From positions 1-64,000 of the forward strand of contig NZ_JACSNP010000006.1 in NCBI RefSeq assembly GCF_016900045.1: a stretch of DNA of 64,000 nt, in the 5' to 3' direction. Below are positions 29,926-62,046 of this stretch, piece after piece; positions within the stretch are counted from its first letter, which is position 1, and every line of letters starts with the position of its first letter. The stretch comes from Fusobacterium mortiferum (GTDB lineage: Bacteria > Fusobacteriota > Fusobacteriia > Fusobacteriales > Fusobacteriaceae). Below the pieces are notes generated by a model, which was not told the origin of the DNA, ran no database searches, and saw only the letters and a list, made by a program, of their open reading frames with translations. The position numbers were made by a program, and so were the translations under genes.

Positions 29926-29956
29926 AAAAAAGCCATTCGGTGTACCCGAATGGCTT
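29926..29956 (-). terminator. asnA leader terminator (attenuator)
   Basis: On the minus strand, AAGCCATTCGG (29946-29956), a 5-nt loop and CCGAATGGCTT (29930-29940) form a perfect 11-bp hairpin followed by a T run. It lies between the leader peptide and asnA. Its ascending arm and loop also form TCGGGTACA (29941-29949), complementary to the upstream segment TGTACCCGA (29967-29975), so terminator and antiterminator exclude each other. Confidence 0.9.
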
Positions 29957-30042
29957 ATAAACAAGGTCGGGTACAAATCAGTTAAACTCGAAAAAGATTT
30001 GTACCACAAGTAGAAAAACATATACTACTTAAAGTCCAAACC
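29941..30042 (-). promoter_or_regulatory. Alternative hairpins of the asnA attenuator
   Basis: Four pairing segments precede the terminator's closing arm. Segment 1 (GGTTTGGAC 30034-30042 plus AAGTAG 30025-30030) can pair with segment 2 (CTACTT 30008-30013 plus GTACAAATC 29996-30004). Segment 2 GTACAAATC can instead pair perfectly with segment 3 GATTTGTAC (29971-29979). Segment 3 can instead pair through TGTACCCGA (29967-29975) with segment 4 TCGGGTACA (29941-29949), which destroys the terminator. A ribosome waiting at the Asn run leaves 1 free: 1:2 and 3:4 form, read-through. A ribosome at the stop covers 1: 2:3 forms and the terminator folds. Pairings are seen; the mechanism is inferred. 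Confidence 0.75.
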
Positions 30043-30103
30043 TCGACATATTATTATTGTTATTATTAAATTGTGCAGTCAAACCAAAAATGTGAAATCT
30101 CAT
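30029..30103 (-). CDS. asnA leader peptide with six consecutive Asn codons
   Basis: A 24-codon frame begins with ATG at 30101-30103, preceded by GGAGG with 5-nt spacing, and stops at TAA 30029-30031. Its C-terminal half reads QFNNNNNNMSRFGL: codons 13-18 (30050-30067) are AAT AAT AAC AAT AAT AAT. It lies between a good promoter and a terminator upstream of asparagine synthetase, the classic arrangement of a translation-sensing attenuator. The peptide itself needs no function. The stop codon overlaps RNA segment 1 of the alternative hairpins. It is too short for ordinary gene callers. Confidence 0.88.
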   Translation of the reverse strand: MRFHIFGLTAQFNNNNNNMSRFGL

Positions 30104-30137
30104 ATCTGCCTCCATAAAATTTAAAATCTATGTGTTA

Positions 30138-30166
30138 AGGATACACCTTTTTAATAAAAAAGTCAA
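30138..30166 (-). promoter_or_regulatory. Promoter of the asnA leader transcript
   Basis: Minus-strand TTGACT (30161-30166), 17-bp spacer and TATCCT (30138-30143). Transcription should begin near 30131, about 28 nt before the leader peptide ATG. Confidence 0.75.
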
Positions 30167-30257: not shown

Positions 30258-31412
30258 TTATTTATTTAATGCAGCTTTTAATTCTTCAACTTTATTTGTT
30301 TTTTCCCAAGGAATATCTAAATCAGTTCTTCCAATATGTCCAAATGCTGCTAAATCTTGATATTTGAATTTTCCACTTCTTAATTCTAGTGATCTTTCTA
30401 TTCCTCTAGGTGTTAAATCAAATACCTTTTTAACTGCTTCAGCAAGTTCTATCTCACTTACTTTTCCTGTTCCAAATGTATCTACTTTTACAGATGTTGG
30501 CTCTACTACTCCTATTGCATATGATAGTTGAACTTCACATTTATATGCTAAATCTGCCGCTACTATATTTTTTGCTACCCATCTTGCTGCATAAGCTGCT
30601 GATCTATCCACTTTTGAAGGGTCTTTTCCTGAGAAAGCTCCTCCACCATGTCTAAAGTATCCACCATAAGTATCTACTATTATCTTTCTTCCTGTAAGTC
30701 CAGTATCTCCGTGAGGTCCTCCTATAACAAATCTTCCTGTTGGGTTGATATGATATTTTTTTACATCAGCTGGATTTAAGTTATATGCTTCTAATACTGG
30801 TTTTATTACTCTTTCTTTTACGTCAGCTTTTATTTGTTCTTGTGTTACATCTGGATTGTGTTGTACTGATAATACTATTGTATCAACGTGATCTATTTTT
30901 CCATTCTCATCATAAGCTAATGTTACTTGAGCTTTAGCATCAGGTCTAGCCCAAGCTAACTCTTTACTTCTAGTCATTTTAGTAAGTTTTACAAGGATCT
31001 CTCTAGCTAGTACTAGTGCAAGAGGCATAAGTTCAGGAGTTTCTTTAACAGCTCCACCAAACATTATTCCTTGGTCTCCAGCTCCACCAACATCTACTCC
31101 CATAGCGATATCAGGTGATTGAGCATGTATAGCATTTAATACTCCACAGTTAGAGTCAAATCCCATACCTTCTCTATATCCAATTTCATCAATTTTTCTT
31201 CTAACGATATCTTGGATATCAATGTAAGTAGAAGTAGTAATCTCTCCTCCAACGATAACTTGTCCAGTAGTACAGAAAACTTCACAAGCTACTCTAGAGT
31301 TAGGGTCATCAGCAAGACAAGCATCTAATACAGCATCAGATATTTGGTCAGATACTTTATCAGGATGTCCAGGTGATACGAATTCAGATGTAAAATAAGT
31401 TAAATTTTTCAT
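30258..31412 (-). CDS. metK: S-adenosylmethionine synthetase
   Basis: Makes S-adenosylmethionine from methionine and ATP. The 384 residues contain the family signatures [17 protein letters not shown] near the N-terminus, [10 protein letters not shown] in the centre and [19 protein letters not shown] toward the C-terminus, with the three-domain layout and typical length. It is monocistronic and preceded by a SAM-I riboswitch with its own terminator, so its product represses its own transcription. Confidence 0.98.
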
Positions 31413-31483: not shown

Positions 31484-31512
31484 CTCATAAATCAAGTCCA
31501 AGTTTTCATCCA

Positions 31513-31594
31513 TCTATCAGGAGTTAGCACCACACTTTTGAAAAGCAGGTTGCTGAGATGTCATAGGGCCAGTCCCTCAATCTCTCTTGATGGT
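31513..31594 (-). ncRNA. SAM-I (S-box) riboswitch aptamer upstream of metK
   Basis: The minus strand shows the conserved S-box landmarks in order: ATCAAGAGAG at the 5' side of P1, GAGGGACTGGCCC with the downstream ATGA segment, CAGCAACCTG, GTGGTGCTAA and closing CTCCTGAT. The terminator hairpin follows about 30 nt later, then the metK RBS. SAM binding should stabilise the aptamer, release the terminator and lower metK transcription. Confidence 0.95.
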
Positions 31595-31616
31595 TAACAC
31601 TTTAAATTTCCATGAA

Positions 31617-61803: not shown

Positions 61804-61810
61804 AGCAAAA

Positions 61811-61977
61811 ATGATAGAGGTGCAATTGACATAAGTAGTATCTCGGAGTTTGACAGACTTTGAGGAGATATGAAAGGGGAGATTGCCGAAATGAAAATCA
61901 AGGTCAAAGGATTTTTGTTGGTAATTCAGATAAGATCTGCTTTACTGTCATTGAAAATTTCAATGGAGAGCTATCTA
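61811..61977 (+). ncRNA. Lysine riboswitch (L-box) aptamer upstream of lysA
   Basis: Conserved landmarks appear in order: GATAGAGGTGC (61813-61823), AAGTAGTATC, GAGGAGATATGAAAGGGGAGATTGCCGAA split by normal loops, AAGGTC, TTTTTGTTGG, TCTGCTTTACTGTCATTG and the closing GGAGAGCTATCT. P1 pairs GATAG (61813-61817) with CTATC (61971-61975). Lysine binding should favour the downstream terminator and shut off lysA. Confidence 0.95.
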
Positions 61978-62046
61978 ATACTATTATAATTTAATTACAA
62001 TAAATATTATATATTTTTTTATTTATTAAAAAATTATTTAAAAAGT

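Follow-up and report, generated by a model that had tools for sequence, protein, structure and literature searches.

The asparagine synthetase gene asnA of Fusobacterium mortiferum is very likely under the control of transcription attenuation mediated by the ribosome, with a short leader peptide through which the charging of tRNA-Asn is read. The putative switch lies, together with asnA, on the minus strand of a 64,000-nucleotide (nt) stretch of this genome (NZ_JACSNP010000006.1, positions 1-64,000), hereafter called the window, and its parts are collected in Table 1. The hallmarks of such an attenuator are present: an open reading frame (ORF) preceded by a Shine-Dalgarno (SD) sequence lies between a promoter and a terminator upstream of asnA, the ORF holds a cluster of six codons for Asn, the amino acid that the asnA enzyme produces, an intrinsic terminator separates the ORF from asnA, and a mutually exclusive antiterminator that depends on ribosome position is seen in silico only. 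The promoter, the GGAGG motif, the 24-codon ORF, the six Asn codons, the overlapping inverted repeats, and the 11-bp terminator that a first-pass annotation of this DNA had described were confirmed base for base. The gene product matches the NCBIfam equivalog TIGR00669 at 349 bits, above the cut-off. The terminator hairpin has a folding energy of -18.4 kcal/mol (z -5.5) and is the sole terminator-like site reported in the scanned stretch (shuffled mean 0.0), while the leader as a whole reaches -51.2 kcal/mol, its shuffled versions averaging -36.7 (z -3.9). A scan of the interval between terminator and asnA found no promoter-like site there.

The proposed mechanism turns on four RNA segments that pair as 1:2, 2:3, or 3:4, segment 4 lying within the terminator. 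Segment 1 comprises the last codons of the ORF together with its stop codon, and the stop codon is therefore the switch point, as the first-pass annotation had maintained. When Asn-tRNA(Asn) is scarce, the ribosome would stall early in the Asn run and leave segment 1 free, so that 1:2 could form once segment 2 has been made; segment 3 would then be free as segment 4 emerges, 3:4 would compete with the terminator, and RNA polymerase would read into asnA, leading to synthesis of asparagine synthetase. When Asn-tRNA(Asn) suffices, the ribosome would reach the stop codon and cover segment 1, 2:3 would form before segment 4 is made, and segment 4 would remain free for the terminator, with transcription ending near 29926 and leaving a leader RNA of about 200 nt. 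The order of hairpin formation is the standard kinetic argument for attenuators of this kind, and equilibrium models are no proof of order. The gene for asparaginyl-tRNA synthetase, asnS, scored above the cut-off in 91 of 98 Fusobacteriota genomes, that of F. mortiferum included, and the charging of tRNA-Asn can therefore depend on free asparagine.

Comparison across these 98 genomes argues for the same conclusion. Of the 78 genomes that carry asnA, 34 have an SD-preceded leader ORF with an Asn run directly 5' of the gene, spread over eight genus-level groups (g) and two families. The leader occurs throughout g5 (7/7), g14 (6/6), g13 (1/1), g3 (11/11), and f6g29 (1/1), in 6 of 12 genomes of the window's own genus (g1), in one of two in g2, and in one of three in g11; none was seen upstream of asnA in g4, in g6, in a second g1 clade (G024-G029), or in family f4, the Leptotrichiaceae (family f1 then presumably being the Fusobacteriaceae). 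Two g5 genomes, G031 and G034, possess two asnA paralogues each, and every paralogue has an Asn leader of its own. An SD precedes the ORF in nearly all homologues, a TTGAC[A/T]-17-TATNNT site recurs about 30-51 nt 5' of the leader ATG in most leader-bearing relatives, and terminators follow the ORF also in g2, g3, g11, and f6g29, though the intervening RNA is unrelated in sequence. The leader peptides of relatives, such as MKTLIFGITAQFNNNNNMSRFGL, MKGHIIFLSDLINNNNNNMLGFGLK, MFKLIMISNNNNNNNNNNNNMRGFVDR, MFINFNNNNYNCNNNNNNNNLLKFMLYNFHYPEI, and MKTVVTSIANNNNL, diverge strongly between genera beyond the Asn run; consequently the run, not the peptide, is the conserved feature. This bears on the possibility that the leader senses a general slowing of ribosomes by antibiotics or stress, or a nascent-peptide signal, with the Asn run merely a slow stretch. 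Short ribosome-arresting peptides that control downstream genes are indeed known, and a motif of such sort in an upstream ORF (uORF) has been reported before hflX (PMC8632094). Such sensing is nevertheless very unlikely here, given that the run is kept between genera when the surrounding peptide is not, that the codon enriched in the leader fits what the downstream gene produces, and that this gene, asnA, encodes a biosynthetic enzyme.

Three relatives show departures at this locus. In one genome (G005) the record stops at a contig edge within the leader. In another (G056, L065), which is incomplete, the Asn-run leader runs almost straight into the SD of asnA, and the part from run to terminator is missing; this may be a natural deletion or an assembly fault across AAT repeats. 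In G019 (L003; contig C8, about 3210 to 2510, minus strand) an intact Asn attenuator is followed by some 700 inserted bases resembling a mobile element, which separate asnA from its leader.

The repeat-like nature of the run raises the further possibility that it is an AAT microsatellite in an AT-rich region, with a terminator that only trims read-through and with no regulation. The number of consecutive Asn codons at the equivalent site does vary in the manner of a repeat, from 3 to 12 across the 34 genomes, and the genome is AT-rich. However, the runs mix AAT and AAC and lie in frame behind an SD, and they recur at the equivalent site before asnA in eight genus-level groups, whereas no short ORF with an Asn run was found within 600 bases upstream of asnA at any of 80 outgroup loci listed in a scan of named genomes, nearly all of them Firmicutes and mostly clostridial; many of these outgroup genomes are richer in G+C, which makes them an imperfect control. 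Further, the alternative pairings agree with ribosome positions better than shuffled sequences do in most leaders, as set out below. Simple repeat variation is thus scarcely plausible as an account of this leader.

Folding models reproduced the mutually exclusive set of pairings (1:2, 2:3, 3:4, and the terminator) that the first-pass annotation had put forward, with refined segment bounds. With a ribosome in the Asn run, the RNA up to the terminator is predicted to pair 1:2 and to pair GTACCCGA of segment 3 with TCGGGTAC of segment 4 in the 5' arm of the terminator; once the ribosome is placed at the stop codon it hides segment 1, 2:3 extends over ten base pairs, and segment 4 is left for the terminator. 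An equivalent pairing logic, built from different sequences, was seen in g5, in g13, and in two of five g14 leaders. The apical 1:2 pairs, judged by eye, read AAGUAG:CUACUU in L001, AAGUAA:UUACUU in L007, CUCAU:AUGAG in L011, AAUGUU:AACAUU in L078, and AAGUAG:CUGCUU in L003, and the core GGRUUUG:CAAAUC of 1:2 is retained in all 13 aligned leaders of g1 and g5. Of 18 leaders with a ribosome masked at mid-run, 15 gave predicted pairing of the terminator 5' arm to upstream RNA of 0.95-1.0. Terminator formation yielded less energy in 16 of the 18 when the ribosome was stalled than when it stood at the stop codon, by 0.5-8.7 kcal/mol, and markedly so in 12 (3.4-8.7 kcal/mol), where 0-10 of 100 shuffles of the intervening RNA reached the value (shuffled means -0.1 to 0.8). 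The first-pass annotation had proposed that a ribosome stalled for charged tRNA-Asn permits transcription of asnA, and had suggested that relatives be checked for a conserved Asn run with covarying segments. Conservation of the run, together with a stall-dependent 1:2 plus 3:4 fold in most leaders modelled, supports such regulation as one that would operate in vivo. Covariation is good for the termination state, where both partners differ in 13 cells and shuffles average 4.2 (the count being reached in 0 of 500), chiefly in the terminator stem, in which four pairs have both sides changed across relatives.

Several results weigh against an attenuator. Covariation for the antiterminator state is weak, with two pairs changed on both sides, a count reached by 171 of 500 shuffles, because the segments hardly vary. 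The difference between stalled and stop states is small or absent in six leaders (L010, L011, L040, L043, L077, and L020), and three of the five g14 leaders are among these six. Four leaders (L005, L009, L010, and L011) retain 3:4 at equilibrium when the ribosome has reached the stop codon as well, and the model there consequently requires 2:3 to form first, during transcription. In full-length RNA the terminator is nearly always favoured, and the switch must therefore act kinetically, the models used here being equilibrium models. Finally, the leaders modelled are related and are not independent tests. The same equilibrium models, applied to untranslated pre-terminator RNA, favoured the antiterminator in g1 and in some g5 leaders and not in others; an untranslated leader in g1 and part of g5 is thus predicted to favour the antiterminator.

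A different class of RNA sensor, the T-box, is also present in the phylum. Matches to the T-box were present in only 20 of the 98 Fusobacteriota genomes and were lacking in that of F. mortiferum, under strict search filters by which weak T-boxes may be missed. Among 19 inspected, 18 carry GAAGAACAC around the specifier position, that is AAC (Asn), and precede asnB, asnS, or an asnS paralogue, and the remaining one (L167) has a TGG specifier before a trpE homologue; that the T-boxes are almost only for Asn holds for the matches found. Genomes of g14 (G054, G055, G056, G057, and G059) and G053 combine a T-box before asnS with a peptide leader before asnA. In the outgroup, a T-box lies upstream of asnA in 8 of 20 sampled loci, several low-GC clostridia among them, in keeping with the statement of the first-pass annotation that low-GC Gram-positives usually employ T-boxes for amino acid supply. 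One might therefore suppose that a riboswitch or T-box-like RNA at the asnA leader binds asparagine or tRNA-Asn directly and that the ORF is incidental, given that T-boxes control asnB and asnS in Fusobacteriota and asnA in clostridia. Against this, the asnA leaders of F. mortiferum and of the relatives sampled match neither the T-box nor any further Rfam family, the F. mortiferum genome itself is without a T-box match, and the RNA from ORF to terminator is unconserved among genera. A search of the leader for a T-box or riboswitch gave no credible Rfam match at gathering or relaxed thresholds, and the Rfam search suggested by the first-pass annotation accordingly returned no existing family. 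Direct sensing by the RNA is extremely improbable, and a leader read by the ribosome remains the preferred account.

The asnA leader is singular in its surroundings. When both strands were scanned across the window for an SD, a short ORF with a run or enrichment of an amino acid, and a terminator, exactly one candidate emerged, the asnA leader. In the F. mortiferum genome five consecutive AAY triplets occur at four separate sites, about as often as a reversed control pattern, and only the asnA site lies within an SD-preceded short ORF. Across the phylum, in-frame Asn runs in short SD-preceded ORFs are, among the matches listed, almost all asnA leaders. Asn-run leaders before other genes were sought among 13 in-frame matches away from asnA, of which 10 proved to be starts of long proteins; the other three are a 10-residue ORF without a gene, a 56-residue ORF, and a leader before an ATP-binding cassette (ABC) transporter, the last rejected as an Asn-specific leader since its relatives are Arg-rich. 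The upstream regions of asnS in 17 genomes held no Asn leader.

That dismissed match (L212) led to a second leader family. In about 40 of the 50 regions inspected, the operon of a polar amino-acid ABC transporter has upstream of it a short ORF that is rich in Arg codons and preceded by an SD and that encodes for example MLRNFRMRNYRDKVYNNIALSIKMTALY in F. mortiferum and MLKLRRRRIRRSRTKNNNSYLIQLA, MIRRFRIRKNQKLN..., and MKSIVRRRQFHMY in relatives; a terminator follows it in all three regions inspected in full. The permease is nearest to models of cystine, ectoine, and glutamine permeases, all below their cut-offs. The codon content suggests a candidate arginine-responsive attenuator, and with it that peptide attenuation is more widely used in Fusobacteria. 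The permease gene with its Arg-rich leader adjoins asnA in some genomes, lying downstream on the same strand in g6 (L234 in G038; G037) and divergently in the second g1 clade (G025-G029). Taken together, it is on balance probable that tRNA-Asn charging is read in this phylum by two unrelated RNA sensors, T-boxes for asnB and asnS and a peptide attenuator for asnA, both together in some g13 and g14 genomes; that leader-peptide attenuation extends beyond asnA in a wider and undescribed form; and that the asnA device, having no segment for termination without translation, would read through when its leader is untranslated.

Upstream of the switch lies metK (30258-31412), which has a hairpin and T run of its own behind it and an S-adenosylmethionine (SAM) riboswitch at its 5' end; asnA is therefore a separate unit. 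The SAM riboswitch (31507-31596, minus strand) and a lysine riboswitch (61807-61981, plus strand) both score above the Rfam gathering score, and these two, elsewhere than at the asnA leader, are the only gathering-score matches in the window.

Table 1. Parts of the asnA switch in window coordinates, with two related sets of loci outside the window.
Feature	Position	Strand	Basis or remark
Sigma-70-type promoter: -35 TTGACT, 17-nt spacer, -10 TATCCT	-35 30166-30161, -10 30143-30138	minus	sequence
SD GGAGG of the leader ORF	30113-30109	minus	sequence
Leader ORF, 24 codons, peptide MRFHIFGLTAQFNNNNNNMSRFGL	ATG 30103 to TAA 30029	minus	sequence; relatives have homologous ORFs at the equivalent site
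Regulatory codons AAT AAT AAC AAT AAT AAT (six consecutive Asn)	30067-30050	minus	sequence
Segment 1, end of leader ORF with stop codon; pairs with segment 2	30044-30025	minus	folding models
Segment 2, core GGTACAAATC at 30005-29996; pairs with 1 (stalled ribosome) or 3 (ribosome at stop)	30013-29994	minus	folding and alignment
Segment 3 GATTTGTACCCGA; pairs with 2 (termination) or 4 (antiterminator GTACCCGA:TCGGGTAC)	29979-29967	minus	folding and alignment
Segment 4 TCGGGTAC, within terminator 5' arm and loop	29949-29942	minus	folding and alignment
Intrinsic terminator AAGCCATTCGG/GTACA/CCGAATGGCTT: 11-bp stem, 5-nt loop, T tract	29956-29926	minus	terminator scan, folding
asnA, aspartate-ammonia ligase, 331 aa, putatively regulated gene	29893 (ATG) to 28898	minus	TIGR00669 match
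Arg-rich leader, F. mortiferum genome (G000)	contig C44, ~27.8-28.1 kb (L229)	minus	MLRNFRMRNYRDKVYNNIALSIKMTALY; homologues L213-L262
T-box loci	L166-L169, L264-L271, L296-L319, L336		Fusobacteriota

To our knowledge, the literature describes neither an Asn-specific leader peptide nor a peptide attenuator from Fusobacteria. A literature search, mostly of open-access main texts, found neither, and the novelty is accordingly provisional. A 26-genome survey that includes a fusobacterium reports uORF candidates and makes no mention of asparagine in its main text, and the asnA leader element is unmentioned in the papers on asnA and Fusobacterium and on Actinobacteria attenuators that were consulted. 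The leader would add one amino acid and one phylum to a mechanism that is among the oldest known in gene control, and the switch would give direct access to how fusobacteria of the mouth and gut are supplied with asparagine.

Among the closest known systems, the attenuator of the enteric his operon corresponds to the asnA leader in its logic, which sets B:C with D:E against C:D with E:F. The leader differs from it in its Asn codons, its gene, its phylum, and the lack of a first segment A for termination without translation, from which the predicted antiterminator preference of untranslated leaders in g1 and part of g5 follows; in trp and his, untranslated leader RNA terminates. The trp attenuator likewise lets ribosome position on regulatory codons select between antiterminator and terminator. 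There, however, the stalled ribosome covers segment 1 and 2:3 is the antiterminator, whereas in the asnA leader segment 1 would stay free during a stall and the antiterminator is 3:4, with 2:3 belonging to the terminating state. The first-pass annotation was right to name peptide attenuation as an established mechanism and placed it too narrowly, mainly in proteobacteria, given that peptide attenuators are known also in Actinobacteria (PMC1262725) and Firmicutes (PMC2965389). Candidates with codons for the cognate amino acid, predicted from comparative genomics outside the classical operons, are similar in kind, namely the Cys-codon uORFs before cysS (uORFC-8-2, PMC8632094) and the His leader peptides before hisS and hisZ in bacilli (PMC2965389), although these concern other amino acids, genes, and phyla. 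The T-box (RF00230) of asnA, asnB, and asnS shares with the asnA leader both the signal, uncharged tRNA-Asn, and the class of target, yet it works by direct tRNA binding without need of a translated ORF, and none was found at the asnA leader. Uncharged tRNA-Asn thus offers a natural comparison, being read by a T-box at asnA in clostridia, probably by a leader peptide at asnA in Fusobacteriaceae, and by T-boxes at asnB and asnS in other Fusobacteriota; with one signal read by differing sensors, it becomes testable why one type of RNA sensor takes the place of another.
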